This document shows, piece by piece, positions 14,536 to 60,580 of a stretch of 64,000 nt of DNA (positions are counted from its first letter, which is position 1; each line of letters starts with the position of its first letter). Source of the DNA: Styela clava (taxonomy: Eukaryota > Chordata > Ascidiacea > Stolidobranchia > Styelidae). The position numbers were made by a program, and so were the translations under genes. Location of the stretch: the NCBI RefSeq assembly GCF_964204865.1, contig NC_135255.1, forward strand, positions 9,825,135-9,889,134, written 5' to 3'. The notes beneath the pieces are model-generated. The model was not told the origin of the DNA. It saw only the letters and a program-made list of their open reading frames with translations, and ran no database searches.

Positions 14536-15052
14536 TTGTAGAGTATGATGAACACGTCCGGAGAATAAATTTTGCTTCCATTAATGTTTTAAATACACTA
14601 ATGAAAAATAGTAGGTGAAAGATCTGACGCAATTCTGACATAAATAGTATAAAAAATGTCACGGACTTCTTCATTTCATTCTTGCTGTGATCAACGACGC
14701 GGGTCTCGTCAGATATTACTAAGTAGAATTCCTGGGCAATGGGATTTCAAACAGCTGTAGAACGCAGCGACATGGTCATTTGTAGCTGATTAGCTATATA
14801 GCGTGCTTTTGACTTATTAGCATGCCCTTATAGGAAAACTAAGTATAAAGCAGGCTCTGTATTCAGAATTTTTTTTTGCCATGAAAGTATGAAAGTTTTG
14901 GGCTCACATTTTTTCATTCATATCTTAAGTTTCACAACTAAAGAAATGACTTCGCTTACAATTACGGTACAAGATAACTTAACTTGAATTTATGTAATAT
15001 TTTCAACCATTTTTATAAGTTGAGTAATCAGATACGAAACTCAGAATCCATC

Positions 15053-19600: not shown

Positions 19601-22333
19601 TTGTGGTGTCTACAAACGGCAAAGGCAGTTTTACCGGAAGGAACGCGGATAATAATCTCCGATATAAGTGTAAGTGGATGGCGAGTTTTTTTTCTCAGTT
19701 TGGAGTCAGTTACACTACCGATTGTAAAAGAAAACTTTTTCAAAAGAAAAAATGCACATGTATATTCAAAAGTGATTATGCGTGCAAGAAACTAATATGA
19801 AAATGCCACCTTAGTGGGTGAAACTTCGAAAGAGTCCATGAAATACAAAAATTATCAAATCAGATTACCGGTAATATTATTAAACTGACAACATTAATTT
19901 AAATGGCATTTGCTATACTTCAAATTGCTTTTTTTCTAATTTAAGCATGGGCCACTGCAAAAGAGTAGAAATAAGAAAGATAAACAGCCAATGAATAGAA
20001 ACTAATTGTATATGTACTTGGGATAGTTTTTGGTCAAATTCAAATGTCTTTTAATATGATAATTTTGTGTAATTTTATTCAAGCAACCTAAATTGGAAAA
20101 TGCTCTTGCACACGGTGCGGATGACACAGTTTTGTGGGATCCTTCTTTCAGTAAAGAAGATATAATAAACAAAACAAAAGAGAAAGGAAGTGATGGCTCT
20201 ATTCAAGCCGTTATAGATTTTGTCAACTCGGCTGCAACATCATCAAGAGCTATGGGAGTTCTTTCGAAGGTATGATTAATTCAGCTAAAATCACGCAAAA
20301 AAGATTGAATGTCCGTCGACAATTCCTATATTCTACGCAACAGTGTATCTCAAATGTACCCAGCAAGTATAGCCAACTTGGGAAAGGTTTGGTTTAATGA
20401 TTCAAGTTCAGCATCAACCTTTTATTTTAGGGTGGTACTATTGCTATGGTGGGATTATTTGGCGGATCATTAGAAATCTCCCTGCCATTGTTTGCATTTC
20501 TTCTTCAACAAATTCATGGAGTATTTGTCGGTTCTCTGGATCAATTAAAAGAACTTGTACAATTAGCTTCAAATACCAAGGTAATGTACATTTAAACAAG
20601 CCGGTAGGCGCCCAGGATCTCCGCTGATAGTTGAGGCCCGCACTCATGCAACCGGTTACCACCCATAGAAACCTGAGGATCTCTAACGGCAGCGCGATTC
20701 AGAAAATGAGTGGGTTGTTACCGTAACTTGCGAAAAAAAAACTAAAAATTTCATAAAGATCGGCGTGTTTTTCGTTGCTACCATGGGAACGAAACTTCAA
20801 TCCGGACTTTCTATAAAACGCAACTTAATAGGGTGATGGGATAATCGACGTGTAAAATTTCATTCAGATTGGTCCAGCTGTTAAGACGCTATATCTAAAC
20901 AGACAGACAGATACACAGACAGAACAAGCCGGTAGGCGCCCAGTTAGATTTCCGCCATTGCTTGAGGCCCGCATTATTTCAGTTTACTAACGGATAATAG
21001 GAGACACTACTAAAAACGCTAGTTCATTTCAAACGCTGCGCGTTTCGTAGACTCACTCGCGTGACTGGTATATTGTAACTGAAAATTAAAAAATAATCTT
21101 CAGTAAAATCCCTAAGGCTCCTCCAGTTTATGGAGTAACGAGATCAAAGATAACTTATTGGAAAGAGTATTTTGCTATGCGGAAGGTAGCGTTCTTGGAA
21201 TTTTAATTTTCGACTTGGTTGGCGAGAAAACGGCGATAAGTTGTGAAAAAAATTTCATAACGATCGGCGCGTTTTTCGTTGTTACCATGGAAATGAAACC
21301 TCCATCCGGACTTTCCATAAAACGCAATACTAGGGTGGCTTGATAACCCATGTGAAAAATTTCATCCAGATTGGTCCAGCCGTTAAGACGCTACATCTAA
21401 ACAAACAGACAGACAGATATACCGACAGACAAGCCGCTAGGCGCCCATCAGGGTCTCCGCTGATAGTTGAGGCCCTCACTTAGGCGCGACCGGTTACCAT
21501 CTATGAAAACTTGCGCAGTTACCGAAATTGCCTGTTCATTTTGAACGCTGTGCGTCTGCTTTTCATCGTTGCGGGAGGAATAAAATGTGGCTAATTATTG
21601 AAAATTCCCAGAGCTTCGCCAATTTACAAGGTATCGAAATGAATGGCGGCTTGTTAGGGAAAGCATTTTTTTCCGCGAAGGGTAGCAATCTCAGAATTTT
21701 AATTTTCGACTTAGTTTACGAGGAAATTGCGACAGATTCTCAAAAAATTAGAAATTTCTCGACGATTGGATGTTATTTGGTTGGTGCCATGGAAACGAAA
21801 CACCAATCCAGCCTTTCGAGGAAACGAATAATACTAGGATGACAGATTAACCTACATGAGAAATTTCATCCAAATTGATCCAGCCGTTTAGAGGCTACAT
21901 ATAAACAGACAGACAGGACGACTGAGAATAAGGGTCTCCTATAGAGCGGAGATCCAACAGACAGAATGACTGATAATAAGGGTCTCCTAGAGCGGAGATC
22001 CAACAACTGATAATAAGGGTCTCCTAGAGCGGAGATCCAATATAAACAATTGTGGTTTCATAAATAGTAACAGAAAACGCGATAATGGGACACGAATAGG
22101 TTTAAGAAGTAATCTCTTTTGGTACTTGACCGACCTTCTCAATGAATCGTTTTTTTAATATCCTTGATAGCGCGGAAAAAGTCGAATAACATTAACAAAC
22201 ACACAATATATTTTCATTCGATGTACAGCTGAAGCCACCTGAGATATCTCATGTCAAGCTTGAAGAGGTGCCAGAGATGCTAGCAAAGCTGCGTAGAGGC
22301 GAAATCACCGGAAGAACCTTAGTGAAGTTTTAA
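16689..22333 (+). CDS. Zinc-dependent medium-chain alcohol dehydrogenase C (8 exons, 372 aa)
   Basis: Near-identical twin of ADH-B, the same predicted NAD- and zinc-dependent alcohol dehydrogenase. Exons: 16689-16784, 17234-17402, 17635-17776, 17923-18083, 19560-19669, 20084-20269, 20431-20580, 22229-22333; sum 1119 bp. All zinc ligands (Cys39, His75, Cys166; Cys107/110/113/121), GAGGLG and Asp224 are conserved and no stop or frameshift is present. Introns carry the same insertions as ADH-B, but intron 7 is about 206 bases longer. Since the upstream kilobase is also duplicated, both copies should have the same promoter and are probably expressed alike. A collapsed haplotype placed in tandem by the assembler is the main alternative to a real recent duplication. 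Confidence 0.94.
19150..19294. mobile_element. Short MITE (145 bp) in ADH-C intron 4
   Basis: Duplicate of 10657-10801 with the same 9-bp flanking repeat ATCCTTGAA at 19141-19149 and 19295-19303. Confidence 0.85.
20730..22040. repeat. CAGA-tailed repeat series and minisatellite, ADH-C intron 7
   Basis: The same series as in ADH-B intron 7. CAGA runs lie near 20900-20920, 21405-21420 and 21905-21917, and the three-copy minisatellite is at 21921-22040. The third repeat copy is full length here: 21519-21722 is the 204 bp missing from unit 1, and it includes the expected module ATTTTAATTTTCGACTTAG also seen in the previous copy. Confidence 0.65.
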
Positions 22334-26291: not shown

Positions 26292-29200
26292 ATGTATACC
26301 TTAATGCTCAATGAATTTGGAGGGTTGAGAAGGGGGATACTCCTACTCTTGGTGTACGTACAACTAACTGAAGGTAAGAACGTTAACGCGTTAAAATTTT
26401 TCAGTAAGGTATAATATAAATTCTGATGCATCGTTACTTACTTACTTACCTGGTTGCGTAATACACGAACATCGATAAAGAATATTTGTTGCTACGAATT
26501 TTAGAATAGCTTTATTTTGGTTAAGTATGGAATGATTAGATATGTACTTCATCGTCAAATCATCTGTTCTGACAACAATTCGGCAGTTTATCATCTCCTT
26601 AAATTTCAATAAAGTTGTCATGACGGAAACAATAGGGTGCGCGTTATTTATGTAGTTTGCTCCAATTAATATTATTATTACCGTAAAAAGATTCACAAGC
26701 GGTCACTTGCTTGGGGGCAACATGTTGATCCAATGAAGCCATGATACTGGGTATATATTGTGCATAGTATATTTACATATACTGTATAAATAAAAAATAA
26801 TTTGAATTCTAATTAAAGCCGTGTAAAACCAAAGTTTGAATTCAATGCAGGACTGAAATGCTGGACATGCGACGGCAAACGATCGCTTTCAGAATGCTAT
26901 GCGCAGTATGGAAAGATGCTCGAATGTCAAAACCCTGATGATGTAAGAGATATGAATATAATTTTTCGTGAAAAAATAAACATATTATCGATGTACTATT
27001 TATTGATTGTAGGTCTGCCAAAACGACTACAGATTTAGGGCTGGTTTGCCGCTGCTTATAAAAGGATGTAAGCAGGAGCAAGCTTGTTTGAATGAAGAAA
27101 AAGAGGTAAGGTGTATTTTTATTACCATTGGGAATTTCGGTTTACCGAGAATTGGGTGAAAAAACAGGTTCCGAGTAGAAACATATTTTGTCAAAAATTG
27201 CAACTTGTGTACCATGGCGAATATTTGAGGCCCGTAAAACTGTGTTAAGTGGAAATATTCGTAGTTTAATATTTTTTGAATTCCCATTTTTAGAAATATA
27301 TTTGTATGCTATTTTTATTAATTTCTATATATGGTTCATTGGTAGAGCTATTCAAAAAATTTATTATGACTATCAATTTTTTTGGGTGAAAACTTGTATG
27401 TGCCCAAGTTTTGAATAGCAATTAAACTTTATTATCACAAAAAAGAGAAATAAACTTTATAGAGGAATTAGTTCGGATTCGGACAGACTTACGTATGATA
27501 AAATTGGATTGACGGGATTAAACCAAATTTGACCCAAGCCACAGAAAATATGCAGTATCAGTAAAAAATAACCATAGAAAAAGCAAGCATATGGAGCTTG
27601 AGTTCTTTTTTACTTTCTATAGCATAAAAATCAATGTGGTCGAGGGAAAAATAACGCCTGCAGATGCTGCTGCAAAACAAACGGGTGTAATAGAAAAGTA
27701 TCAGGATGTGTTCCTCGTAAGTTATTTTATTGTTGTTTTTGTTCGTTAATCAGAACATGATTTAGTTTGTACATGCATGTATGTCCACGTATCGACGGAA
27801 TAATAAAACGCATTACTTATTACAGCCCCGGCCCCGTGCAAGAAACCTAGAGCTCCAATCAACGGACTAGTGTTCTGTGACCGCGAGCTAAATTTTGGCG
27901 CAAAATGTAGATATCGTTGTATTTTTGGATACGAAAGAGAAGGCCCTCCTACATCAACCTGCGTGAAGAATCCTGACAAGCCAAAGAAAGGGTTATGGTC
28001 ACCTGAGCCACCAATCTGCAAAAGAGTGTTCATTGAGTGCCTTCCACCTCGCACAAATCCACAAAATGGATTTGTCAGATGTGAAAACTCAAGAGAGTTT
28101 GCAAGGTACAAAAGATTTACTTTTGAAGGCACGAGATGTGTATATTCTTGCAAGCAAAATTACTATTTGAAAGGAAAGAAACTATCGCAGTGCAGATCGA
28201 ATGGACTATGGAGCAACGATATACAACCGACTTGTGTGATCGGAAGATGCAGAATTCCAGTCCCAGATGAGAACAGAATTAATATTTGCACGAGTGGTTT
28301 TAAATTTGGAAGCAGTTGTAGATTCAAGTGCAAGCCCGGATATAGGCTGGTCGGGAAAGACTTCTCTGATTGTAATCAATTCGGTAGATCGGAACGCGGA
28401 TTTTGGTCACAAGGTCTACCAAGATGTGACAAGATTAAATGTTCAAATCTAGATGATCCGGAGAAAGGCAAAGTCTCCTGCCCGAACGGCACTGACTTGG
28501 AAAGCGTATGCCAATACAGATGTAACAAAGGATATGATTTGGACGATACAATACAAAAAATAGTATTGACAACATGCCAGTACGTGGACGTCGAAGAAGG
28601 GTCTGTTGACTGGAGTCGGAAGCCTCCTCCTACTTGCAGTAGAATCAGGTGTAATCCTCCATTCCAAAATCCAAAAAATGGGAAAGTAAAATGCACAAAT
28701 AAGAACTGGCTAGACAGTGTATGTAGATTTTCTTGTGACAAAAATCATGTTGCTCCCTACGATACAGCTGGCTCTCTAAAGAGTGTCTGCCAGGACGATG
28801 GAGATAATGACAAATTTGGCGAATGGAGCATGAAAATGGCTTTTGATTGCAAACCTGTAACATGTGAGACTAATACTATCAAACTCATCAATTCAATAGT
28901 GACATGCACGCAAGGAAATAGTGTTGGCAGTACTTGTAAAATTGAGTGCTTAAGAGGATACGCATTTGAAGGTTCACAAGTTGGAGTAATCAACACAACA
29001 TGCAGAAGCACTAATTCAATGTCATATAAAGGTTCTTGGACTTTGATACCACCTCAATGTAGCATTATCAAATGCCCCCCATTACCTCCTGTTGAACATG
29101 GAACAACGAAGTGTTCTAACAAAGACTATATAATTGGAACGAAGTGTAAATTTGCTTGTAATAAGAACTACCGTATGATAGGAAAAGCACAAACATCCTG

Positions 29201-31153
29201 TCGAGATATTGAAAAGGATGGCGACACAACAGGAGAGTGGACTAATCCTCCGCCGAAATGCAGTCTTGGAAAATGCCCACCTATACTATTTGACGACCGA
29301 ACTGTTGTACGGGACTGTACAGCCCCGGAAGGGTATGATGTATTAGAATTCAGAGTGGGCACCCAATGCCGATACACGTGTAAAGATGATAGTTATTACA
29401 TGCTCAATGAATTTACCAATGAACCAATACTCAGAGATGAAGTGCTCGCATCATGCACCGATAGACGTTTATGGAGTAATCCGGCACCGAGGTGTATAAA
29501 AAAGATATGTCTTCCCGTGCCCAAAGCTCTAACCAATGGATATTTTCCAAAATGCACAAATGGAAATATAATTGGATCAACCTGCGTATTCAGATGCAAA
29601 GAAAAATATGAGCTAACCCAGCCTAGGCCTATAAAATGCATCGCAGACGACGACAATGATGCATATGGAACATGGGATGGGGAATTGCCAACATGCAAAC
29701 GCAGTCATTGCGACGATTTTGGAATGGTGAAACATGGTACTCTAAATTGCACAGAGGGTTCAAGAATCGGATCTGTGTGTCAGCTCACATGTAAAGATCG
29801 TTACACGACAAAGCAATATGAAACTACAGCATGCCTTGATACAATTGACTGGAGTTCCCGCCAATTTTTTTGTTGCGTCCGATGTTTATTCAATAAACGA
29901 ATTAGGGTTTTGGGTGTTTACGATTCTTCAGCTTTCCGGACAAAGCTTGACTGGGAATATATGGTTGATTTTACGGAATCTTATCTATCTTATATGGTAC
30001 GGTACGGATTCGACATTGAGTTTTCTGCTTTCAACTATGCGAAAGACGTTGACACCTCTAATTTGATCAAGATGAAAAAATTGAGAGACCGAGAGGATGT
30101 GAGTGAAGTATCTGCGGATTTGGAATATATGTGCGACAAAGAATGTTTGAAAGACAATGGTAAGACAATATTACCGTTTCACAAATGTACTGCGTATGGT
30201 TGTGTATGGAACGTAAATGGTTCACACGCGTCGTTCTAAATATCGCGCGAAGTCACATTGGTATCTGGGTAATATAACCAGAATACAAGTAGTGCAATTT
30301 TGCAAAATAGAGATATTTATCTTTACCAAGACGCCTGGGGTTAGGCGCCATTTATAACAGTAACTATACATACCCGTTTGAAGCAGATATGAGAAAGAAA
30401 TATAACCCGATAAATCCGAAACGATAAAAACCTAAGGCTACATCTTTCTAATTAAAGCAAAATTTATATATTAGCTGCATATACTGGTCGGGCTTTACGA
30501 TACATTGACGAAGAAGTATTCCCTGAAGTGGAAAAAAGAAGAGAACATTTCGTTATCTTGAGAACGACAGGAAGATCAAGAGATCAAACAGCGGCAATTG
30601 CAAAGAAACTCCGAGAGAAAAATATAAATGTAAGAGTAACTTTAAAATACACACACTATCTAGCTAGTTTAAAAGATGCGATGGAAGATAAGTTCATAGA
30701 AAAATGTCAACATTTAAACGGCATTTAACTTCCCCATGAAACGTCCGAATTCAGTCAATCAACTTCATTATAAGGTTATTATGCTTTCGTCAAAACACAG
30801 AAATTCGTAAATGAGGGAATTCACGATTTACTGTGGTTGCATTTCCATGAAAATGATAATATGACGGGTGCCTGTTGCGGGTGGCATAAATGTTCAGGCT
30901 ACGCAAAAAAAGAAGAATGACAATACCCCATACGTTATTGGTAATCTATTTACTTTCTTTTACGTAGATTTTAGTCATCGGCATTCAAAGCAAGAAAGAT
31001 TCGGAGGCACAACTGTTGCAGATCGCTGGTAAAGAACGTAACTATCTAGCGGTGAGAAAACCACAAGATTTAAGAAACGTGCCCGCAAAGATTTTCGAAA
31101 TATCGCGAGAGACAGGCTGCACAGCTGCAAGCAAGACACAAAATTGCTCATAA
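26292..31153 (+). CDS. Secreted Ly6/uPAR-like + 10 CCP + VWA protein, paralogue 1 (7 exons, 1011 aa)
   Basis: Predicted secreted multidomain protein; ligand and function unknown. Exons: 26292-26373 (signal), 26851-26942, 27013-27105, 27623-27716 (Ly6-like), 27826-30159 (ten CCP plus start of VWA), 30475-30629, 30968-31153 (rest of VWA, TAA). The sum is 3036 bp, in frame. Residues 1-28 hold a hydrophobic stretch (GILLLLVYVQL); Met5 at 26304 is an alternative start. Residues 29-118 have the Ly6/uPAR pattern (CWTC, KGC, CRCCC, GCN). CCP modules run about 125-803, each with four Cys and a Trp before the last. VWA starts near 812 with DSSAF where a MIDAS motif DxSxS would be. The C-terminus TGCTAASKTQNCS is conserved in the sisters. 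An AATAAA is at 31439. First of three tandem paralogues. Exon structure is firm; the signal exon is less certain than the rest. Confidence 0.88.
27826..30159 (+). CDS. Giant exon 5 of paralogue 1: CCP1-10 and VWA N-half
   Basis: A single 2334-bp open exon, phase 1 at both ends. It opens PPAPCKKP and carries ten consecutive CCP modules with no intron between them, unusual because CCPs in vertebrate genes are mostly one per exon. CCP8 has an enlarged N-terminal part (TVVRDC then EFRVGTQC) and CCP10 ends in an adjacent Cys-Cys (FCCVRCLF) that joins the VWA. Several modules contain an acidic run before the conserved Trp, for example CQDDGDNDKFGEW and CIADDDNDAYGTW. Confidence 0.92.
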
Positions 31154-36541: not shown

Positions 36542-39500
36542 ATGGCATCTATTGCGAGGAGTATCTTCTTGTTTGTTTTTATTGTTGTAGTAGCTGTACA
36601 GACGGTTCAAGGTAAGTTAAAAATTGACATGAACTAACACCAAATAAAAGCAAAACACGATCATATTGCACCAGTGTTTCGAGTATTCAATCAGTATCAA
36701 AACTAGTTATTATGGATCATAATCATTTTAAAACAATATAATTAGGTTTTATAATTTTTTCGGAGGACAATATTTAGATCTACCAGGCGGCCGTGCATAC
36801 TGCATTATCCTCAGATCGATAATTTCTAAATACCGGGAATTCTAGAAAACTTTATTCCGTGCAATAATCTGCCAATATGTAATCGCGAATTTCACTTCCT
36901 GTTCATCATGAAACACGTAAGTGGAATAACCCAGCATAAAGTCAATTATTGAATTAATATAACAGAAATCATTAAACAAGACAATACAATAGTGAAAATA
37001 AGCAAATCGTTAAAATTACATGCTTGTTGGATCATGACATGAAATTTTTAAAATGTTCCGGAGTAACACGTCGAATGAATACTTGGGGGCGCATAAATAA
37101 AACAACTGTGTGATAAATACGGGAATCAACGCACACTTGATGTCATGTTCTGACTTTGACTTTCAATTCGCATGAAAAATGCCAAACCATCAAGTTTGGT
37201 TAGTTTACTGTGTGTTTGAACACCGATAAAAATAACGAAAACGTGAAAATGAAATGTTCGTTTTCTAAAGTGAAACCTAGATATGAGTAAAATGCAAAAA
37301 ATGGTGGTTTCGCCGTAATCACATTCGCAAATATTGCTTTCGAGTTTTCTTTTTGAAAAAATTTATTTGCGATATTTTGCCAATAATTATTATTCTTTTT
37401 AAATATGTTTGTTAATAATGTGAAGTGATATTACTGAATAGACATTAGTAGAACCAATACGTTCCATTCACGTTTAGTCAATCTCGAGTTGTTAAGATTT
37501 TCTTAACAACACTTATTCTTCAATTTCGACTTATGATTTAAGCGAACGTTTTGCTTTTCTAGGTATAAAATGTTGGGTTTGTGATGGGAAAAGGACATTG
37601 AAAGCATGCCATGCACAATACGGAAAGATGCTTGAATGTCCAAACGCTGACGATGTAAGTTCTATTGAAGTTTACCTAAAAAAAATTATTTTACGTATAG
37701 CGGGCTATTTTCTATTCTGATGACAATTTCAAATGCAATACTAAGAATTTTAGAAATAAACTGTCAATGTCATTCTTTTGGTATTTCTTCTTCGATTATG
37801 AGATATATCGCCATTGAATCCTGACCCAAAGCAGAAATTAGAGACATAATACTATGTGATTTACACAAAAACTTGACCAACCTCATGATCGAAATAGAAT
37901 GGGTAACTGGCATACAAGACGTTTTCATCCAATCAAAATTTAATTCTTCAAATTAATGATTTTTAGTCAGTCCTATTAAAATATTATTTCCTTACTCGGC
38001 TACAATATAGAAATTCCCCATATTATGTCTTTTTAAACAGGTATGCCAAAATGACTACAGGACTGCACAAGGTAAACCTCTCATTACAAAAGGATGTAAA
38101 CAAGCCAAAGCATGCGAAACGGAAGTCAAACAGGTGACTAGAAAGTTTTTGATAAAATTTAATTTTTGCTCAATCAATTATCCGGGTCAAAGACGTAATA
38201 CCCTAGGTCAGTGGAAAGAAAATCAATTGAAAATTTGAGGCGAATTGTGTCGTGAACTGCTACCTTCAACAAAACATAGAATTTATTGCAGATGTTGAAG
38301 AGTAAAGCTTGGATAATACCTTAATATATATATATATATGGGCATGTATTTATCACTTATGTTTGTGTTATGCATATCACATTATACTATGAACGATGAT
38401 ACGTATTTCAAATGCGCATATCTGTAACCAAATACGTCTTACAATAACAAAAAACTGTTTTAAATAGACAGACTGGTATCCATTTCTAAAATCAATAGGT
38501 CATGTTCGTTTATAATTTGCACGAAACCCGAAGGAAAAAATTTTCTGTGCCAAAAGACGGGTGACATTTTAGTGTGACTTTGTACCTCGAACGTCGAAAG
38601 TAAATGATCTTCGTGACAGTCCTTTTTTTCTTTGATATTATGACACAACTGTTATTGATTTGTATCAATGCACCAATAGTCCAACGACTGGATTTTTAGG
38701 TTATTGATATCTCCAACAGTGTTAACTCTAAGGGAATTATGAGTGCGAAAGTGCTTCGCAGTTGAAAAAAAAAGTGCGAAAGTGCTTTTGCCGATTTTAA
38801 CAAGTTAGGTGCTCTAGCCTTTCATATAACCCATTTAACACGGCATAGATACTCGAAAAAGCGCTCCTCCGGTTAATATTATGAATTAAAGAGAAGCCTT
38901 TCCGTTAACCGAGTTCCCTTTGAGCGAATTCATGTTTAATTAAAACAAGCGAATTCAACAAGCAGAATGTAAACCAATCAAATTAAAAAACGGGAGTTAC
39001 GACGCCCTTAACACATCGTGTGTATTAAACTTCCCTGGTAAGTACTATTATTATTGTACTTATACACTTGTTGGAGTATTTCGGACAATTTCGAATTTAA
39101 AATTAATGATAACCTGACATATAATAAAGACGCAAAAGTAAAATGAACATTTTTTGAAAAAGTTATTATTTAAGAAAGACAACATGATCGTACAATTCCG
39201 CCCAAACCTCGATGTTCGCAAGTGAGATGATAAATAAATACTTCCCTGTATTCGAGCAATTAACTTTAGCGTATCGTTGTTCTGCCAACAAACAGCCGGG
39301 TGCAAAATATTTCCGTCCTGTGATATGCTCACAAATATTCTCGATATTAATATCATACCCTCGCGTATGTACTTTCTATTAGCTCTTTAGTGATCCCTTC
39401 CATCCTTGGCCAAGTCAAGTTTCGAATATGTGAACATTTTATTCGACCATACATGGCCGGCGGGATGTTAAAATTGTAAACAAGAGAGAGTCGCAACAAT

Positions 39501-42500: not shown

Positions 42501-45500
42501 TTGAGCTTGATGTGAACAAAATGGTAGTGGTAATAGGTGTAAATATTTTTCCTCAAAAAAAAAATGCAAATCAAGCTCAGTATATAGATATTTTTAATTT
42601 GTATTGACAAAATATTGTGATTGCATCAATTAATAGTAAATCGGTCTTGGAGCTGAAAACCGAGTCTCCAAACTTAACAAAGTTTCAGCTAAGCAAAATA
42701 TGATTGTTGCATAATTTGCATTCCTGCTTTAAATGTATAAAGCATCCCGCGCGTAAATAATGGCTATAAAAATTATCGTGCAAACGTGTCATTATTATTG
42801 ATCACAGCGGCCTACACTTCTCTAACTAATTTGAAACTATTAAGGGCAAAAATGAAGTGAGGTCAAATAAAGTACAATATCAATTAAATTACTCAGAAAT
42901 ACACAATGTTAAACACACTCCAACAAACGTGACCTGAAAACCTGACATATATGCATAGAAATGAGTTTGTCGAATAAGAATCAACCAATTTTAGCTGAAT
43001 TAGTAGGATGAGTGCACCTGGTTTGCGTTGACGGATTGGGAGAATCCGGAACAATCCTGTCGTATAGAATTATACTTCTTTTTATAACATTGAAATTAAA
43101 AACATACTAATTCTGCGATAAATACACGGACTACATGGTCCACGAGTAAATTGCTTTCACTTATGACCCTATGTAAATATAATTTTCTTTAATTTCAGAA
43201 CAAGGATAAGAATCAATGTGGAAGAAAAAGATTAATTAAAAACATGGTCTGCAGATGTTGTTGCTCATTTTCTGGCTGTAATTCTAAAGAATCTGGATGT
43301 TTGCCACGTAAATATTTCATTCAATTGACTGTACACTAAATACTCTTCGTCGAAGGTAATTCCAACTTTTTTCCAGTTGGAATACTCTGACTGGAAGATG
43401 ATATGATTCACATCGTACAAAAAAACCCGCGTGATATTCTTCCAAATTAGCAATATGCCCAATTATATTATCTTATTATTTGCCATTGTAGACTACCATG
43501 AAGTAGCAAATTGCAAATAAAAAACAACGCATTATATCACAGCTCCGGCACCATGCAAGAGAATACCACAATTAAAGAACGGCCAAACCAGGTGCCCAGT
43601 AGACATCGATTTCGGATCACAATGTTTCTTCAGATGTCATCAGGGCTACGAAATGAAAGGCAAAAACAAGGCAAGGTGCTTAACTCTTTGAACCCTGAAA
43701 GCCGCTAAACCGGCTTTCCCGAGAAAGTCTTCTGACGCTGAAAGCCGGTTTAGCGGCTTTCGCATCCCGTAAGAGGTATGCAACTTTGAAACCTAATATC
43801 TCGCGAACCATTTATTATATTTAGACAAGTTTTACATCGTGTGAAAGATAATCTACAGGACTAAGTATAATCTTAAAATTGAGATAAAATATTGTGATCA
43901 TCTTATGAAAATTGGCAAAATTAAAAAGCATAAAAAACTTCTGAAAATTGCTCAAATCTAATTGACAAAACTTCAATTTGTTTTCGATTAAACCTAGTAC
44001 ATTATCGACAAAATTTGTAGAATTTGAAGATAGCTTTCCAGTGATACCATTAGATTGAACTTATGTTGCACCATCCAAATTTTAGAAGCATTTTTATTCG
44101 TGATTTTGTTTGTTTGATTCGTGAAGATCGAGGCGACGTCAAGGTGACGTAAATAACGACCTAACACATTTACGTCGTTACGCAGCGACGTTAAGCAATT
44201 ACGTTGGCACGTAGCACGTTTACGTTTCATACGAGAAACACTTTTCCTCGCATGCTCGTAACGTCATTTACTTAAGTTCGTACTCGTGAAGCGACTTACG
44301 ACTTGTAAACGATACACGGGGAAATTTACGCATTACATCGGTTCGACTAAAACACACAATACGCAGTGTTATTGCCGTTTTAATTGCATAAAGATATGAA
44401 AAATACGAATAGCCAAAATAAGGATTTTTAAAAACAGAATGATGGAACATATCGATGGATGCATTGTTTAGCGCCATTGCTGAGTTTTATTGTGCCATAT
44501 TTTCTTCTTCTGATAGATGAATACCATCCAATATTTCAACTGGACAAAGCTTTCTTTTAAAATCCATTGTAAATATAGCGATATCAGGAATGTAGCGTAT
44601 ATGCAGTAATTTCGAAAATCTAATGAGGCTGCAAAATGTAAAACACTGACCAGGTGAGCTACTGGTGCCACCATGTCTTCCGTGTACCCGTTATCAGTTT
44701 TTTTTTTATTCAATCTTCATGATATCTAACGGTGAATAATTAGCCCTGATGTTTCCGGCGGAACCTCATAAATTCATGAGGATCAAATATTTCGTTTTGG
44801 CCATTCATTTTCGTCCCATATCCTAATAGTAAACGTATATAAAATGGCCTTTATATTCTAGCAATTTTACTATGTTCGATCAAAATTCGTCTGAAAGGGT
44901 TTTATCTGCGGCCGAGGATATGATACTAATGCAATGAAGCCACAATCTGCACTCAAGCTGTGAACGACCAGATGTGCAATTGCGCAATATACCTCACGCA
45001 AAGAGTTACGCACGATACGTCGCATGAACGTTATCACGACAATGTCGCCGTCGCCCTTTGCGTCCTTACGCAAACTTGGCGTCAAATAGTTGATAAATTT
45101 TGTTCGCAAACCATTTGAATCGATAGTACAAATTCTGCAATAAAATGAGTTATGCGTATGTTAAGAAAGTCATACGTATATCCTCCGAAAGGTAATTTTG
45201 TATACTTTTCAAAATTGTACTTATATTGATGATACATTTCTAAGAAATGTATTAAATATTACCAAAATACAAAAAAATAGTAGATGGGGCTACAAATAGA
45301 CTTACACATCTCATCAAAACATCTCGTGAAAAATAATGCCAGTTAAAAATAAAAGACTAGATAAGCTTTTATATGATATATTACAGACCATCTGATATGT
45401 AATGGTTTAGAAGTTATTTTGATTCAAAATTAGGGATATTACAATTTTTTAACGCGTCGAATCGATGCGACGCCGTGGGAGGTCAGGGTGAGAGAGTAGC

Positions 45501-48500
45501 ATCGTTCTGGGGATTCAGAGTTCAAAGAGTTAAGATTGTCAAAGGGAAGTAAAAAAGGCCGTTGGAACCCTGAAAAGTTGCCAGTGTGTGAAAAGGTCAT
45601 TGTACGCTGTGATCCGCCAAGAGTTGCCCCAACAAATGGCTTCATACAATGCAAAAACGCATTAGAATTTGCCAAAGAAAGTGACCTCAACTATGAAGGA
45701 TCTAAATGCTCATATCAGTGCAAAGCGAATTACTATCTTAAAGGTAAAGCAAACTCTGTATGTGCTAACAGCGGTAGGTGGAATAACCCGGAACCTAGAT
45801 GTGAGATGGGGCAGTGTGAAAACATGGAAAACGATCCAAACAGAATAGAAACTTGTACAGACAACTACAATTTCGGTAGCACGTGTACATTTAGCTGTAA
45901 GGAAGGGTTCAATTTAATAGGAAGCAAACGTTCAGAATGCCTTCAGTCGGGTCGCTCAGCTCAGGGACAATGGTCCAGAACATTTCCTCGATGTGCTGAA
46001 GTAATTTGTAATCCAGTTCTTACAAATCCCGCTTATGGTAAGGTATCCTGCACAAAAGAAAACCTCAAAGGAAGCGTGTGCACCTATACGTGCAACGAAG
46101 GTTATGATTTGGATAAAACAAACCGAACGTCTGTTAGTTCGGTTTGTGAAGATGACGGAAACGGCGATGCGTTTGGAAAGTGGAGTGCAGATGCCCCTAC
46201 ATGTTCGGAGATAAAATGCGAACCCGCATTCGTTGATCCGGTTGGTGGTCAAGTGGTTTGCACAAGTCGCAATAGATTCGGCAGTGTTTGTACTTTTTCA
46301 TGCAATTCACAAAACGACTTGGATGATACAACTCAACCAACAATGGAATCAACGTGTCAGAATGACGAAAATGGAGACAATATCGGAAAATGGTCACGTC
46401 CAGCGGCCGAATGCAGTCCTATCACGTGTCAACCAGAGTTCAAGGAGACCAGAACCCAGAAATTAAGCTGCACTAACGGCAATGCTAAAAATAGCGTATG
46501 TACTTTTATGTGCGCGGAAGATTACGACCTCGATGGAGGCATTGAAAGAACTCAAACATCCACTTGTCAACCACCAGTAGACGGAACATCGATAGGAAAA
46601 TGGACGAAGAATAAACAACCGGAATGCACTTCAATAAAATGCCCCCCGCAACCTTTCCCTGATAATGGCTTTCGAATTTGCTCTACCTTCGACTTCATGC
46701 GCGGCACATTTTGTGTATTCATGTGCGAAGATGGATACGACTTAATTGGCAAATCGTACATGTCTTGCCAAGATTCTAAACAAGACGGTGATGCAATTGG
46801 TGAATGGACTGACCCGACGCCGACATGTAGACTCGGGCAATGTACTGTCACGAAATATGACAAAAGCACTGTTGTTGAAGATTGTGCGCCTCCAAAAGGA
46901 TACAAGGTTTCAGAATACAGAGTAGGCACAGTGTGCACATACCGATGCATAAGTGATGCATACTACATGGTTCCCAACGTAGGCGATGAACCAGTAATGA
47001 GTGGGGAAACGATAAGTAAGTGTAATATCGAGAAAAAATGGACAAAAAAAGAACCTAGGTGTCTCAAAAAAACATGTCAACCAAAATTGTTACCACCTGA
47101 CAATGGATACCCTCCACTTTGCACAAATGGAAACGACTTTGGTTCGAAATGTACATTCTCTTGTCAAGAAAAGCATGCATTGACTCAAGAACGACCTCTG
47201 GTGTGCGAAGCTGACGAAGACAATGATCAATACGGTAGGTGGAGCGAGATTATTCCGGAGTGTAAACGCAGCCATTGTGATGAGTTTGGAACAGTTTTAC
47301 ACGGCAAGATCAACTGTACCGATGGAACGAAAATCGGCTCTGTGTGCAATCTTAAATGTATTGATCGTTATACAGCCAAACGATACGAAGAAACTGAATG
47401 TCTCGATACAATAAACTGGAGCAGACGACAGTATTACTGCTGCGTACGATGTTTGTTTAACAGGTAGGCTAGCGCGGCTGTTACACCTTCCTCCGACCAT
47501 GTATAGAAACTGTGAAATAATAATTGAAGTAACGCGCAAAGCAACGTTAAAATGTTTTCTCTAATGCATAACTTATGAAAAACTATTATTATCGTTAACA
47601 CTGATTTCTAAGGTTATATGTTTATAGTATTTTTTGGTGTACTGTGTTTATTCGGATCTATTTGCGTCATGAAACGTTGCCATAATTAAGTCCTACAAGT
47701 TATATTTTTACAACGTACATTCTTTACATTTCTTTCTAGGCGCTTGAAAATCACAGCGGTATTTGATACCACCGCGTTTCAAACACGTGACGATTGGCAA
47801 TACATCGTTGACTTCACGCGATCGTATCTGGCTCCGATGCTTAGATTTCGACTAGACATCGGATTTGCTGCCTTGACTTATTCTGATGATATAGATGAAG
47901 AAACATTGATACCGATGCGTCGACTTCGATATCCAAATGAATTGGACGAATTGGTGTCAGAATTAGAGAACATGCATTTTGGTGGACATGGTAATAGTTT
48001 GAAATATTACGCGCTTTCCCAACGGTAGTAGTGTGTGAATACAATTGTTTCTGATCAACTTTGCATACAATATTCGAACTATCAACTACGGGTAAAATTC
48101 GAATAGCCAAATATGAGTGTAACGCAATACCGAATTCCAAGCGCTCATGTCCAATTTAATCACAAGCCATTCAAAAAAGACTATCATCAATCGGTATAGC
48201 AATTAGGAATGTTTTAGCTGAATCTTACTACAAGTACTATAAAATTACGAATGAGGCCCAGCAAGTATCATTACAGTAAGAGTCCCAATAGCAGTTAATA
48301 CTAATTTTTCAGTGACACAGATTCAAACGTATGAATTTTACCGCCAAGGGTTTGGTTACATTGGTTAAACAAGTTGATATGTTGCATATGCTTATGAAAT
48401 GTGCGAACGGTTAGAGCAACAATTTAAAAAAAATTAATGTAAATTAATAAAAATCCGTCGATTGTATTTGATTTGTAAAATTAAGTAAGGCTACATGCTA

Positions 48501-49935
48501 TGGAATCTGTATCGGGGGTGATATTGTATAACATATACATACAATATTCATATTGTAGTGGCCAACACTGGGCGAGCACTTGACTTTGTAAACGACGTCA
48601 TCTACGAGAGAATTGATAGAAGAAGAGAGCATTTCGTTGTTCTTGCGACATCAGGAAGATCGAGAGATGACGTTCGTGATGCATCTAGGCAACTTCGCGA
48701 CAGAGGTGTCAACGTGAGTAGTAGATATTTACTCTCACACTTTTAGTGGAAAGGCTCATTTTACACATTTTATCTTCAACTGAAATTTTATATTACAGGC
48801 TTTTTGTAATAAATTGGATGGAAATACTATTTGAGTATCGTTGAGATTTCTTTTTCACTCTCTTGCCTAGCTTGCAATTATCTGATGTTAGATAAAATAA
48901 TACCGACTCGATTAACTATACCAAAAGACATTATTTTTTATTATAGCAGTGGCTAAACCAGTATAGAACTTTAATCGACACAGTAACGGATATTTTTTAT
49001 ATTCATGATTCAATATACAAGACTACTATTATTAAAGTGAAAAAATATGAACTGAATAACCTAACGATAACGCATCACCGTGAAATAAATTATGCGAATT
49101 CGAACGAGAGCCTGTTGAACCTGTACGTTCGACAGGTTACTTCATCGATAAAAAAACGTTGCGTACATAAAAACCGCCAGAGGGTATTTGTTTAAAGATT
49201 CCAATCAAACTAGCTAAACCCGTCATAGCGATTCGTATGCGCTTTGTGCCACATCAAAATGCCGCGCATGATCATACTAGAAGTTTTCGCTGTGTGGTAA
49301 ATAGTACTACCTTCAATCAGACAAAATAACTGATGACTTGCGCAGAATCCGTAAAATTATATATTTTTGCATCCGTTGAATCAATAGCTCATAAAAGAAT
49401 TATATAGGTATGAATTGGTGATTTTAGCTGAATGCGTGAACAAAATTTTTGTACTGAAACGATCATTTTTTCATGCAATGAATTCAAGTATATTTCATTA
49501 TACGATGTTTCCAACCTGAACACTGAACAAGGTTGTTTGTGTGTGAGTAACTCAGAAAGAATTACTTTTCATTGTCATTCCAATTTCGTAGCCAGCTGAA
49601 TTGTTGAAATACCAACACAAAAGGGATAAAGTAAACAATATATCTTCGAACTACTTCGAACTTTGACAGCGTCGCCTAAAAATTATGAATTTGCAGCGCG
49701 CAGTCTTTCCTGTTCATGTTTAATTACACAAAAAATTTTCTATCATAAGATTCTGGCAACCGGTGTGAAACTTGACAGAGTGGCGGAAGAAGAACTTATA
49801 CAAATGGCTGGAATGGAAAGGAACGTCTTTACTGCTGCAAAATTTCAGGACATGGCATCCATACCGGCTAAAATATTTGAGATTTCTAGAACAACTGGGT
49901 GTACCACTGCCAGCAAATCTCAGTCCTGTCCTTGA
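36542..49935 (+). CDS. Secreted Ly6/uPAR-like + 10 CCP + VWA protein, paralogue 2 (8 exons), coding exon broken by a piggyBac-like element
   Basis: Same predicted protein family as its two neighbours. Exons: 36542-36611 (signal, MASIARSIFLFVFIVVVAVQ), 37563-37654, 38041-38133, 43199-43307 (Ly6-like), 43543-43683 plus 45534-47463 (CCP1-10, interrupted), 47740-47990, 48559-48713, 49750-49935 (VWA, TGA). As sequenced, CCP1 reads into a stop four codons after the TTAA, so the product would be about 170 residues: signal, Ly6-like domain and part of CCP1. Without the 1846-bp element and one TTAA the exons total 3027 bp, an intact 1008-residue frame. VWA shows DTTAF in place of DxSxS. The intron at 47464-47739 is absent from the sisters. 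Intron 3 is swollen to 5 kb by a hAT element. AATAAA lies at 50304. I read it as a recently broken allele of a functional gene. Confidence 0.87.
39576..40860. repeat. Direct ~140-bp repeats bracketing a segment inside the hAT
   Basis: About 39576-39720 and 40715-40860 are diverged direct copies sharing ATAATTAGGGC, AAATAAAATTGTGAATT, CTCGGTAAC and GGGTTTTGTTTTGTTGAAAA-like parts. They enclose about 1 kb that includes the 105-bp tandem array. Confidence 0.75.
40074..40450. repeat. Tandem array, ~105-bp period, about 3.6 copies
   Basis: The motif AAATGTAACAAAACRCATTT recurs at 40074, 40181, 40284 and 40389. Each is followed by GCGATATAA...TTGTATTTTCG, an ACGGG(T)GTC part and ATGATCTAAATTAA. 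It is located inside the intron-3 hAT element and resembles the internal minisatellites common in hAT elements. Confidence 0.85.
43543..43683 (+). CDS. 5' fragment of paralogue 2 exon 5 (N-half of CCP1)
   Basis: This fragment follows a consensus acceptor (TATCACAG) in phase 1 and encodes the PPAPCKRIPQLKNG... part of CCP1 up to Cys3 (KARC). It ends in the TTAA target site at 43680-43683, after which the transposon begins. The equivalent exon in the sisters is uninterrupted. Confidence 0.9.
43684..45529. mobile_element. piggyBac-like non-autonomous element (1846 bp) in a coding exon
   Basis: Inverted termini CTCTTTGAACCCTG and CAGAGTTCAAAGAG match at 13 of 14 positions. The element is flanked on both sides by TTAA (43680-43683 and 45530-45533), the target duplication typical of piggyBac. 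Just inside the left end is a 22-bp inverted-repeat pair. No transposase is encoded; the longest open frames are about 80 codons. Removing the element with one TTAA rejoins the host codons into an open frame matching the sister protein (KARC then LRLSKGSKKG). Confidence 0.93.
43697..43761. repeat. Subterminal inverted repeat pair (22-bp arms)
   Basis: Arms at 43697-43718 and 43740-43761 are perfect inverted complements (core GCCGCTAAACCGGC against GCCGGTTTAGCGGC) separated by 21 bases. Each arm is also partly self-complementary (GAAAGCCG / CGGCTTTC). It is probably a transposase-binding or hairpin feature of the piggyBac-like element. Confidence 0.85.
45534..47463 (+). CDS. 3' fragment of paralogue 2 exon 5 (rest of CCP1 to CCP10)
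   Basis: Open throughout, it resumes CCP1 at LSKGSKKGRW and continues through CCP2-10 to CCVRCLFNR. It ends at a phase-2 donor AACAG|GTAGGC, whereas both sisters read straight on into the VWA at this point. Acidic runs such as CEDDGNGDAFGKW and CEADEDNDQYGRW recur before the conserved Trp. Translation from a start inside this fragment is possible in principle, but such a product would lack a signal peptide. Confidence 0.92.
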
Positions 49936-54470: not shown

Positions 54471-57400
54471 ATGAATATTTTTCTGTCAGTTTTCGTCAGC
54501 TTGCTGGTCGTCTATTTAAATGTCAGCTTGGTTCAAGGTGAGAACTTTTTTCATCCATATTTTTAGTTAATTCTCTAAGCCACATGCTTGGGTAACTAAT
54601 ATTTGGCTTTATAGTCTTCATTACAACATTGATTTAACACTAGAATCGTCTAGAAATATCTTGATTGAGATATCTTTTGAACATTTCATGCCCATTCATT
54701 TGTAGTGTCGGCTTAAATGCGAATTTTTTTTAAAAAGCATCGTTTCAGCGCAGTTTTTAGGGGGTCGGCTTATACGGTACTAATTGACAGTCCCCGACAA
54801 AGCCATCAATGACGGTTGTTGGCCATTGCTAATTCATGCATGTAATCATGATTGTTGTATGACGAACTTTATATATATATATGATAAATTAAACCATACC
54901 TGGAGTTGACTGGTTGAGCAATAACTTTTTTTACGCAATACCCAGGTATCAAATGCTGGACATGCGATGGAAAAAACAGTTTAAAGGAATGTCATGCACA
55001 GTACGGGAAAATGTTGGAATGCTCCCAACCAGACCATGTAAGGCATTTCATTGTATGAAGCAAAGGTATACCAATGAAAAAAATCTAAATCCTGTTAGTA
55101 TTTGATATCAAATATTTAAATATACGTGGATTAGGCTTTAAATAGTAAAGTTCCAGATATCTAGTCCAAGACACAAGTGTTCAAACCAGTAATAAAAATG
55201 TTGCCTATAGTAAAAGAAATAGTCGAACAAATATTTGATTACCACAGCGATTTTATTTTCACAGGTCTGTCAAAACGATTATCGAACTGTGAGAGGTAAA
55301 CCACTTATTATAAAGGGATGTAAACAAGAACGAGCTTGCATAACAGAAGTCAAACAGGTATCGTGTTTATGTTAATATTCAATAATGTATTGTTAATTTG
55401 CTCTTAGAAACAAGAATATCATTACCTCTTCCCAGGAATTAGAGAGTGCATCATAAATATACCTCATATATGAAATTATTATGATTTTAATTCATCACAC
55501 TAATACTATCTCGATCAAGCATGCTTCCCACGCGGATCCATTATCTTTGCAGCCACGCGCATTTGCTAACACGTAGATTTGCATCCATAGACGACATTGC
55601 TACAAACAGGTTGCAAATGTCCATGGATACTAATGTTCATGGATGCATATGTCCGTGAGTGCAAATGTTTATGGATGCAAATGTTCATGGGTGTAAATCT
55701 CAGTAAGTGCAACTGTTTATGGGTACAAACGGCCATGGCTGCCAATGTACCTATGAGTGTAGATTTCAAGGGCGCCAATGTAGACGGTTGCAAATTCTAC
55801 AGGGGCAAATACCCATGGACGCAAACATTCATTGGGACAAAGTTCTACGGTTTAAAACTGCGCGGGTGCTAAAATCTGCGTATGCAATGGTATGCGGGTT
55901 CAAACGTCCTGGGTACAGTTTATTAGTGCTCATATACGGGTGCAAATGTACGTGGGTGCAAACGTGCTATCACTGTCACCCACATCTGAAGTAGGAAGTA
56001 AATAATATGAAAAGACATGTAGTTCTGTAGTACCATCTGGATCAAAAAGAGTTTAATCCATCCATATTTGAAAGCATATCTAAGTTTTACGATGTTTCTA
56101 TCATGCTCACTGCAATCACATATCAAACGATAAATGTTTGGTTTTCGCAGCAACTGGTAAGTTCACCGTATGATAAATACATTAGAAATGTTCGTTTCAA
56201 AACACTCACATAGATATATTGGAAATCTAGAACAAAAATGACAATCAATGTGGAAGAGTCAGATTGTTGAAAAATCTTGTTTGCAGATGTTGTTGCTCAT
56301 TCTCAGGATGTAATTCCAAAGAATCCGGATGTCTACCACGTAAGAATGTATATCGAACATAAATATAGTAGCCATCGGGGCTACTTGATGCAATCAAAAT
56401 ATATTATAAACACGACTACCGATATGATCAAATACAAATTCACTCTTCAGGCTAACTATGTAATTAATGTATGAAAAGAATTTGAGAAAATAATTTCTTG
56501 AAAATTGTTGAACACCACGGTAATATTGATGAATAGTTCGTAGAACAGTGGCCGGCAAACAGTGGGCCGCCGAGCATTTTCTGATGGGCCTCTATTATAT
56601 TTCAAATATGGTCAATGATATCCAAAAAAGTTCTATAAATCCAGCATTACATATAATTTTTTTTGCCAAATGGCTATTTATTCATATATCAAAGAATCAT
56701 ACATTACGTTCATTTTAACTATAGTACCAGCATTGCAACTATTCTCGCCTCTTCATTCCAGCGTATCTGGTTATTTTATTGGGTCATCAAAATAGCGCGT
56801 GCGAACGACGCGTATCGGATTAATTTCAAATTACATGTCTCTTAACAAGTTTATTACGTGGTTAAATTTATAATTCTCAAAGAAATCTTGGCCGAAGCAA
56901 GCTAGGCTGTCACCAAAGTAATGGTTGTTGGGCCTTGAAACCTTTTCCATTCTACTATTTGGGCCTCACTTGGAAATCTTTGCGACCACTGTCGTAGACG
57001 AAGGTACAGTGATTAAGAAATCTATCTAGTGTTTTTATACTTCCAGCACCCGCTCCATGTAAACGAATACAATCAATAAGAAATGGTAGAACATATTGTC
57101 CACACGGAGAAATTAAATTTGGCACGCAGTGTTCCTTTAGTTGTAACAACGGTTTTGAACTAGTCGGAAAAAAGACAGCAACTTGTAGACCTCTCGGCAA
57201 AGGAAGTAAAAAAGGAAAGTGGATACCCGAAGAACTACCATTCTGTAAGAAAATAATAATCAAATGTGAACCTCCAAGAACAGCTCCTGAAAGCGGTTTT
57301 CTATCCTGTAAAAACTCCAAAGAATACGCAAAGTTTGATGGTTTCAACTACGCGGGCTCCACCTGTACTTACGCCTGTGAGCAAAATTATTACGTTGCAG

Positions 57401-60400
57401 GAAAGAGAATAACACAATGCGAGTTTAATCGAGACTGGAACAATCCTCCTCCAACATGTAAAGTGGGAATTTGCGAACCAGAGAAGGAAGATCCGAATCG
57501 TATTGAAAAATGCACGAATGGAAATATGTTTGGAAGTTCGTGCACATTTGAATGCAAAGAAGGATTCAACCTCATCGGACATAAAAAATCAGATTGTGCC
57601 CAAATTGGTTACAGCGAAAAAGGCTTTTGGACGAAAAGGTTCCCGCGTTGTGCGAAGATAATTTGTTTCCCAGAGTACACAAAATTTACTCAAGGCACGG
57701 TAAAGTGCAGCGACAATAACTTCAAGGACAGCGTTTGTACATTCACCTGCAATTTCGGATATGATATCACCGAAACAGAAAAACCGTTTAAAGAAATAAT
57801 ATGTCAGGACGACGATACTGCGGACACAAAGGGACAGTGGTCTGGCAATCCACCAGTATGTGAGCAAATTACTTGCAAGCCTGCACTGCATGATCCCCAA
57901 AACGGGCAAGTTGCGTGTTCAAACAAGAATAATATTGGAAGCAATTGTACCTTTTCTTGTAATGAAGGTTACGATTTGGATGGCACTGTGGAATCTTCCA
58001 TTGAATCACTATGCAGAGATGATGGGGACGGGGACGAAGTGGGAGAATGGACAGTTCCTGAAGCAACGTGCAGTCCAATCACTTGTAAACCTGCAGCATC
58101 AAACCCCAGTGATGGATATGTGAGGTGCACAAACAGAAATTTCCATAAAAGCACATGCTCTTATGAATGTGAGGATGATTACGACTTGGACGATACCAAT
58201 GATTTGGTCGCTTTAAGAACCTGTGAGGATAGCGGAAAAGGCGTGGCAGAGGGTGAATGGAGCGGTAAACCTCCCACGTGTTCCACCATAATATGTGAAC
58301 CTTTGCCAGAGTTTCGTGATGGTTTCCGATTTTGTTCAATGCAGGGGGGCTTGAGTGGCGCCTTTTGCGTGATGTCTTGCAACGACGGATATGAAGCGAT
58401 AGGAAAGACGTACATCAGTTGCTCGAATTTGAAAAGAGACGGAGATGCAGTAGGTGAATGGAGCGATACACCAGCTGTATGTGAATTAAGTTACTGTGAG
58501 CCACCGAAATACGACGCATCGACTGTGGTACAAAATTGCAAGGCACCAAAAGGCTATGCCATCGATGAATACAGAGTAGGAACGGTATGCGAATACAAAT
58601 GTATTAACGAAGGTTACTACATGGTACCAAACACTGGCGATGAAGTCGTCCTTCAAGGTTTTATAAGAGACAGGTGCAATGTAAATAAAAAATGGTCGAA
58701 CCGCCCGCCTCGATGTTTTCCTAAAACTTGCTTGCCTCCCATAACTACACTTGAGAATGGTCATACGCCTAAATGCACCAATGGTAACACTTTCAACTCC
58801 AGGTGTCGTTTTGAATGCTTGGCAAAATACGGGCTAACGCATGAAAATCCTTTAGTATGCCGAGCTGATGATGACAATGATCAGTATGGTAAATGGAGTG
58901 AAGAAATACCCAAATGTGAGAGGAATGAATGTGATGAGTTTGGAATTATTAATAACGGAAAATTGAACTGTTCTAACGGACTAAAAATCGGTTCTACGTG
59001 TGATTTGACATGTATTGACAAATACACACAGAAAAGATATGAGCAAATAACTTGTATGCCGAGTGCTGAATGGAGCCAAACAAAATTCGTCTGCTGTGTG
59101 CGTTGCCTTTTCAACAAGCGGCTCAATATTTTGACCATGTTTGATTCAACAGCCTTTACAACGCAGAAGGATTGGCAATACATTGTTCAACTGATGGAGA
59201 AAACCATTAATAGAATGCTGTACTTCCGTCTGGATGTCGGATTCGGAGCAGCTCGATACGCTGAAGTGGTTGACACTGAAAGCGCGGTTGAAAAAGTAAG
59301 AATGAGATACACCGAGCATTTCATCCCAGTGGCAGAACAAATCAAGAACATGCCGATAACTGGGAGAGGTAGCTATTAAACTATCAACTCAATTATAATT
59401 CACATTTGACTTAATCTCCCCCCTGCATGTGGAAATGGCTAGTTAATGGTATTTATAATTCGTATGAACGCCGAACGTATTGAAAATAAAAAAGTTTCAA
59501 GACGACATGAACAGAAATGTTACAGTAAGATGTCTCGGTGCACTGTCGCCAACTCTCTAAACTAAATCATCATTGTATATTTTGAAACAAGAATTACAAG
59601 TTACACATAGGTTGCCAAAACGAATGATTCTGATATATGAATTTCTCAGGTGTACAGCAAAGCAACAATTCAATTTCAATAGTAATAGAACGGTGTAAAC
59701 TATATTATATTCTTGGATGATCACTCATAAAACATATACAAATGTTGATATCAGATCAAATTCAGATATCTGTTATCTCAAAAAACGCCATCAAATATGG
59801 CTTTGCTTGAATTTTGTTTTTTAAGAAATGTAATAAATAAAATAGCTACAAAATTTCTTTCAGAGGCAAATTTAGGAGCGGCACTGACATACGCCAACGA
59901 TGTTTACTTTAAAACTACCGATAGAAGACGTGAACAATTTCTTATCTTGTTCACATCAGGATCGGGTATAATGAATAACGCAGTTGTCGAGCAAGCGAAG
60001 ATTATCAGACAGAGGGGAATAAACGTAAGTAAATTTAGATAGCCTGATGACAGCATGGTTTTACTGATTTCAAGATGTTTATGTATTCAGTTATTTTTCA
60101 TACAAGTAGTACGTTCTTGGCAAAAATCCACAGCATGACTTGGGATGTCCAGACAACTAAACGTTTTCAGGCCAATAGATATTTCACGTTTTTTCTGAAC
60201 TTAAATATTTTCCGGTCATGTTTCTGAGTGTCTATTAGATGAACGGAAATTCCTGAAAATGGCAACTGCTTAGTTTCTGTAGAGGTATCTACTAATATCT
60301 GATACTTTTCCTGAACTTCAAATAAAATATTCTGAAAATTTGATCTTTAGGGTTATGTATCATTGTAAAGACCTTAATTGTTTAATGTTTATAGATATTG

Positions 60401-60580
60401 GTGGTAGCCTTCAACGCAAATAAGAGTGCAAGCAAGACACTATTGGATATTTCTGGTCTTGAACGAAATATGATATCTGCGTCGAATCTAGAAGACTTGG
60501 CACGTTTGTCAGAACAAATCAGTGTAATATCAATGACGACCGGATGCACATCAGCTAGCAAATCACAACCGTGCTCTTAG
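54471..60580 (+). CDS. Secreted Ly6/uPAR-like + 10 CCP + VWA protein, paralogue 3 (7 exons, 1009 aa)
   Basis: Third member of the cluster and apparently intact. Exons: 54471-54537 (signal, MNIFLSVFVSLLVVYLNVSL), 54946-55037, 55265-55357, 56231-56339 (Ly6-like: CWTC, KGC, CRCCC, GCN), 57047-59368 (CCP1-10 and VWA start), 59864-60024, 60395-60580 (TAG). The sum is 3030 bp, in frame, with the same intron phases (1,0,0,1,1,0) as paralogue 1. CCP modules keep four Cys and the Trp; CCP10 ends VCCVRC. VWA shows DSTAF where DxSxS is expected, EANLG where the MIDAS Thr should be, and TSGSG in place of TDG, so metal-dependent binding is unlikely. It ends in TGCTSASKSQPCS. Introns 3 and 4 carry a 16-bp minisatellite and a hAT element. 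Secretion and an adhesive or recognition role are inferred from domains only. Confidence 0.92.
55598..55970. repeat. Degenerate 16-bp minisatellite in paralogue 3 intron 3
   Basis: About twenty diverged copies of a 16-base unit close to TGCAAATGTTCATGGA. The open frames it creates on both strands are periodic artefacts. It lies between Ly6 exons 3 and 4 without touching splice sites. Confidence 0.85.
56546..56991. mobile_element. Non-autonomous hAT element (446 bp) in paralogue 3 intron 4
   Basis: Termini CAGTGGCCGGCAAAC and the complement of TCTTTGCGACCACTG are imperfect inverted repeats. The 8-bp flanks TCGTAGAA (56538-56545) and TCGTAGAC (56992-56999) differ by one base. No transposase. 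Confidence 0.82.
57047..59368 (+). CDS. Giant exon 5 of paralogue 3: CCP1-10 and VWA N-half
   Basis: A 2322-bp open exon, phase 1 at both ends, running from PPAPCKRI to MPITGRG. The uninterrupted CCP1 (TATCRPLGKGSKKGKW) is the reference that shows where the transposon broke the same module in paralogue 2. Acidic runs before Trp include CRDDGDGDEVGEW and CRADDDNDQYGKW. Confidence 0.93.

Follow-up and report, generated by a model that had tools for sequence, protein, structure and literature searches.

A split sushi/vWA gene in a tandem array

The window, that is the whole stretch of 64,000 nucleotides analysed here (G000:C6:9825135-9889134, in a genome of 376.6 Mb), contains three tandem genes on the + strand. 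In each, a Cys-rich N-terminus is followed by consecutive sushi (CCP) repeats, with a vWA domain at the C-terminus. Sushi matches were obtained for every paralogue. The other parts were searched for in paralogue 3, with paralogues 1 and 2 assigned by alignment; the vWA domain has an E-value of 1.7e-14, and for the Cys-rich N-terminus there is no Pfam match at 0.1. Paralogue 1 (26851..31153, + strand) and paralogue 3 (54946..60580, + strand) were modelled with six exons each and are open, with 983 and 986 codons free of internal stops.

Paralogue 2, also on the + strand, begins in our model with three Cys-rich N-terminal exons (a, 37563..37654; b, 38041..38133; c, 43199..43307). They are followed by the CCP exon (exon 4, 43543..47463), which is split by an inserted element, by two vWA exons (47740..47990 and 48559..48713) and by a last exon with the stop (49750..49935). 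A first, signal-peptide exon was not found for this gene, and the model starts without it. Between the CCP exon and the first vWA exon lies a 276-bp intron (47464..47739, + strand) that is absent in paralogues 1 and 3 and is likely an intron gain in paralogue 2. Its sequence has one match in the genome, itself, and a repeat origin was rejected on this ground.

Across the genome, 70 matches to the CCP exon were found; eight of them are long (C6 has five, C10 two and C19 one) and the others shorter. One further paralogue of this exon, G000:C6:7518053-7519918, has one TAA within the match; this paralogue could be damaged, or its match could simply extend into an intron, as happens for paralogue 2. 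Elsewhere in the window there are two copies each of some near-identical frames and of a repeat array, spaced about 8.5-8.7 kb (5636-6037 and 14217-14618; 9161-9718 and 17795-18211; 13209-13340 and 21909-22040). This is a recent tandem duplication, and the frame beside it is one that we take to be alcohol-dehydrogenase-like.

Anatomy of the insertion

The element in the CCP exon is 1,846 bp long (43684..45529, + strand) and is flanked by two copies of a TTAA target, at 43680..43683 and 45530..45533. Its terminal inverted repeats, CTCTTTGAACCCTGAA on the left (43684..43699, + strand) and CTCTTTGAACTCTGAA on the right (45514..45529, - strand), match at 15 of 16 bp; the first 10 are exact, or 14 counting the TTAA, and a 21-nt inverted pair was also detected for the ends. 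When all TTAA pairs 200-4000 bp apart in the window were scanned, this was the only one with an end match of at least 14/16, and permuted controls gave 2 matches in 20 runs. The element is non-autonomous and non-coding, with no open frame of 100 aa between 43684 and 45529. Next to the left end it carries a perfect palindrome with 22-bp arms 21 nt apart (43697..43761), and further inside a small templated insertion (44114..44123, + strand) that is private to this copy and has one match in the genome, itself.

Read through from the host exon, the protein ends in ...KARCLTL*, at an in-frame TGA carried by the element (43689..43691, + strand). It lies four codons into the insertion and is codon 147 of the paralogue 2 model. 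Without the element and one TTAA, the host exon measures 2,071 bp and keeps the downstream phases; the joined flanks KARCLRLSKGSKKGRW align with TATCRPLGKGSKKGKW of paralogue 3, and the frame runs on through the later exons, 984 codons being open before the stop. All 78 cysteines that are common to paralogues 1 and 3 are retained in paralogue 2. Comparison of the paralogues by dN/dS gave no result, as NG86 yielded no synonymous value.

The first-pass annotation of this DNA had described a TTAA duplication with 14-bp inverted ends (14 bp if the TTAA is included), a stop four codons past an insertion site in coding sequence that breaks paralogue 2, and an exon that regains 2,071 bp, its phases and its likeness to paralogue 3 when the element and one TTAA are deleted; all of these hold in our analysis. 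Its predicted protein of 1008 residues was not reproduced, our model having 984 codons with the first exon not found.

Copies of the element elsewhere in the genome

The element family occupies at least 41 places in the genome including the window site, a lower bound because the scoring covered 40 of the 377 first-look candidates. The other copies are 92-98% identical to the window copy. Thus the search for identical copies proposed in the first-pass annotation finds relatives and no identical copy, the best other one being 98% identical. Out of the 41 loci 37 were read, and 29 of these, the window site included, have a clean TTAA on both sides. In the remaining eight, either no TTAA lies between an abutting pair (L012, L014) or the ends are degraded or missing (L058, L059, L063, L064, L069, L070). 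The abutting pair (G000:C8:3148705-3152379) stands head to tail, its copies two substitutions apart, which suggests a tandem duplication and not two insertions. Two copies on unplaced contigs, L018 on C220 and L057 on C105, lie inside a ~51-bp satellite whose unit contains TTAA; since both are in this satellite, reading them as two alleles is unsupported. L006 (G000:C16:7568884-7570724) is at the edge of a frame that has a weak collagen-repeat match, below the cut-off of Pfam.

At one of the 29 clean sites, L015 (G000:C4:16830047-16831884), the copy splits an open NACHT (NLR-like) frame that spans the site with 385 codons or more. Searched apart, the two flanks match positions 72-165 of the NACHT profile (E 3.9e-11, above the cut-off) and 1-21 (E 5.6e-4, below it). 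The other frames of more than 200 codons across clean sites are those of L018 and L057 (the satellites), the window gene, and L061, for which one piece was searched and has no Pfam match at 0.01. NACHT sequences are also abundant on G000:C2, where 97 of 194 candidates were scored: the first 6 Mb hold dozens of near-equal matches. Most are frames of 467 codons, and the spacing of many is about 50-145 kb. This region is a large NLR-type array.

Age of the copy and decay of the gene

To place the window copy among its relatives we aligned 34 copies, the window copy (entered in place of L001) and 33 other loci; L058, L069 and L070 were dropped (missing ends). Six copies fall in an old group and 28 in a young one. 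Young copies differ from their consensus by 8-23 substitutions, and the window copy, with 21 in 1,838 bp, ranks 27th, more diverged than 26 of the 27 others. In a FastTree phylogeny its terminal branch is 0.0118, at a low placement support of 0.733. The other young copies range from 0 (L014) or 0.0006 (L006) up to 0.0131, the zero arising because the abutting twin L012 shortens the branch of L014. Three of the 21 substitutions fall in the templated insertion at 44114..44123, and a genome-wide search allowing up to 2 mismatches found no sibling or source copy with this private insertion. Given the 21 substitutions, the long terminal branch and the private insertion, the window copy is not fresh. 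For an element that moves by cut-and-paste, the private age of the copy sets no more than a maximum for how old the insertion is.

The state of the gene gives a different picture. We applied the substitution spectrum and the indel rate of the young copies to paralogue 2 over the private divergence of the window copy, counting stops, frameshifts, lost cysteines and lost splice dinucleotides as disabling hits. Neutral decay would have produced 3.2-6.0 such hits, depending on divergence and indel rate, and none is observed. The probability of zero damage is 0.003-0.042 over ten settings, a range that is somewhat generous because the cysteine criterion was added after the retention of cysteines had been seen; without this criterion it is 0.021-0.084 over four settings, which is not decisive. 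Accumulated stops in the flanking exon, to which the first-pass annotation had looked as evidence against its proposal, are not seen anywhere in the 984 open codons. Its description of the insertion as recent gets no support from the element (27th of 28, with a private insertion) and indirect support from the undecayed gene. Together, these results favour either an insertion event more recent than the copy itself or alleles lacking the element that have stayed under selection.

It could also be that the insertion is old and fixed, and that paralogue 2 is a pseudogene lacking other disabling changes by luck. The position of the window copy among the most diverged young copies and the uniqueness of its private insertion agree with this, as does the outcome of our search for an empty allele in the assembly. 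As DNA, the upstream flank matches just itself and paralogue 3, and with the paralogue 3 protein as a query the sole near match for the downstream exon is the exon itself; no hidden empty haplotype was found in these searches, only the filled site. Luck would however have to account for the absence of all of the expected hits, and the private age that makes the copy look old does not date the insertion of a cut-and-paste element. We regard an old fixed insertion as rather improbable. With an insertion younger than its copy, or alleles coexisting for long, the absence of other damage is accounted for, and an unbroken version of paralogue 2 may persist in the population, because the readable remainder of the gene shows no decay.

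Splicing or excision of the element

A gene without decay might also still make its protein if splicing removed the element as a new intron. With a donor GT at 43676 and an acceptor AG in TTAAG|A, after which the exon resumes at 45535, the frame would be kept at a net cost of three codons, and paralogue 2 already bears one private intron. For a second in-frame pair, 43592/45772, the acceptor scores 4.9 and the donor 2.7; in leave-one-out scoring, real acceptors span -0.4 to 9.7, which includes the former, and real donors 2.9 to 10.7, which the latter just misses. Scored as pairs, however, the exact one reaches -4.2 and 43592/45772 reaches 7.5, whereas the 16 real introns, themselves part of the small matrix used (built on 16 donors and 19 acceptors from these three genes), lie at 14.0-23.7. 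Moreover, the former would cost a conserved cysteine of CCP1 and the latter 110 residues. The element is unlikely to be an intron, and we give very little weight to a protein made in this way.

Another way for paralogue 2 to remain under selection would be precise TTAA excision, either somatic or frequent in the germline, like that of the internal eliminated sequences of ciliates. Excision of piggyBac elements restores one TTAA (PMC3408717), the gene is undecayed despite a diverged copy, and open frames for piggyBac transposases are numerous in this genome. In the assembly, on the other hand, no empty form was found, and simpler explanations fit; such excision seems to us scarcely probable. 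If true, regular precise removal at TTAA would let an animal keep a diverged transposon copy inside a coding frame that does not decay. The data are fitted most simply by a recent jump of an older copy to this site, or by a presence/absence polymorphism of long standing.

A candidate source of transposase

The genome has 121 listed matches to the PF13843 profile, and 30 of these transposase loci were compared with the element. The best matches to the element among the 30 were L049-L052. L051 (C3, 3,694 bp) and L052 (C8, 3,700 bp) are 99.4% identical over 3,710 bp, are flanked by TTAA at different sites and carry ORFs that, read from M, are 633 and 635 aa long; the L051 transposase matches PF13843 with an E-value of 2.3e-75. 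The likeness of L051 to the window element is short and moderate, limited to three stretches of more than 40 bp at E 0.002 or better: the right end (80.9% over 47 bp), the left subterminal part, where the palindrome lies (71% over 70 bp), and the interior (75% over 65 bp). The first 15 bp of the right end are the same in L051, L052 and the window element. L051 and L052 are likely the helpers of the window element, judging from these shared sequences, and L053 is a second, less close candidate. Inverted ends were found at 2 of the 30 transposase loci (12-bp, 1.5-kb scan), where random pairings gave 3 in about 200.

Several piggyBac transposase frames, mostly open, occur in clusters (G000:C17:4346273-4382456, with seven; C18:12377689-12399102; C6:2783834-2861597). 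No inverted TTAA ends were found within 1.5 kb of the 13 clustered frames read, and these are possibly domesticated tandem genes.

Elements of the piggyBac superfamily are described as having inverted ends of 12-19 bp that generally start CC[C/T]T (PMC2872659). The 15/16-bp ends of the window element are of this length, but start CTCT. The same departure is seen in PF13843-bearing elements: CTCTTT with TTAA stands at one end of L051 and L052, whose other end starts CCTC, and at both ends of L053. Since these do not fit either, CC[C/T]T does not separate families in this genome, and the label piggyBac-type therefore rests on the ends, moderately similar, that the window element shares with a transposase-bearing element of the same genome. 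To this extent the name piggyBac-like in the first-pass annotation is borne out, the element being a TTAA transposon with piggyBac-type helpers in its own genome. Kolobok elements likewise give TTAA duplications, and the lack of CC[C/T]T would allow the element to belong to such a superfamily, which is very hard to credit when PF13843-matching elements carry the same CTCTTT ends and TTAA.

A possible presence/absence polymorphism

Taken together, the most plausible account, to which we assign a probability of about 0.7, is that of a trans-mobilised piggyBac-type insertion that nulls paralogue 2 and is young or has long coexisted with an empty allele. The non-autonomous element would have been moved in trans by a piggyBac transposase from another locus of the genome, as the shared ends suggest; the anatomy of the site shows that it was pasted into a TTAA within the CCP1 codons of paralogue 2. 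The sequenced haplotype is null or truncated, translation ending at model codon 147 and the next in-frame ATG probably standing far downstream of any secretion signal. Because paralogue 2 has no other damage, the insertion would probably be much younger than the private mutations of the copy, brought by cut-and-paste from an earlier site; alternatively, filled and empty alleles may have coexisted for long as a presence/absence polymorphism.

Several points stand against this account: the rank of the copy (27th of 28), no sibling with its private insertion, no empty allele in the assembly, ends that start CTCT, a similarity to L051 that is short and moderate, and a tree support of 0.733 for the window copy. 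The type of event is textbook knowledge; the one real tension is that of a diverged copy in an undecayed gene.

For annotation, there is a risk that gene predictors put the start of paralogue 2 in the wrong place. For biology, the locus would offer a clean natural test of whether a recognition-type gene with sushi and vWA domains can be lost, because the empty allele would amount to an exact revertant. A NACHT frame is likewise split by a copy of this young family, so immune-type genes here may currently be gaining presence/absence variation from TTAA elements.

Comparison with known systems

Among the known systems closest to the window element are the PF13843 elements L051, L052 and L053 of its own genome, with the same TTAA and ends; the difference is that the window element has no transposase. 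Set beside MITEs, which are homogeneous, non-coding and usually well under 1 kb, the young group is homogeneous and the element non-coding, but 1.8 kb long.

The internal eliminated sequences of Paramecium (PMC3408717, PMC8354472) resemble our case in that an element lies in a coding exon and its exact removal leaves the exon in frame. Their excision is programmed, whereas no sign of this was seen in the present animal. The CMITEs of corals (PMC2872659) share with our element the TTAA duplication, the short inverted ends, the lack of coding capacity, ends and adjacent parts that resemble a transposase-bearing element, and tandem copies. In contrast, they are ~100 bp long against 1,846 bp here, the ends here start CTCT, and our tandem pair abuts without a TTAA.
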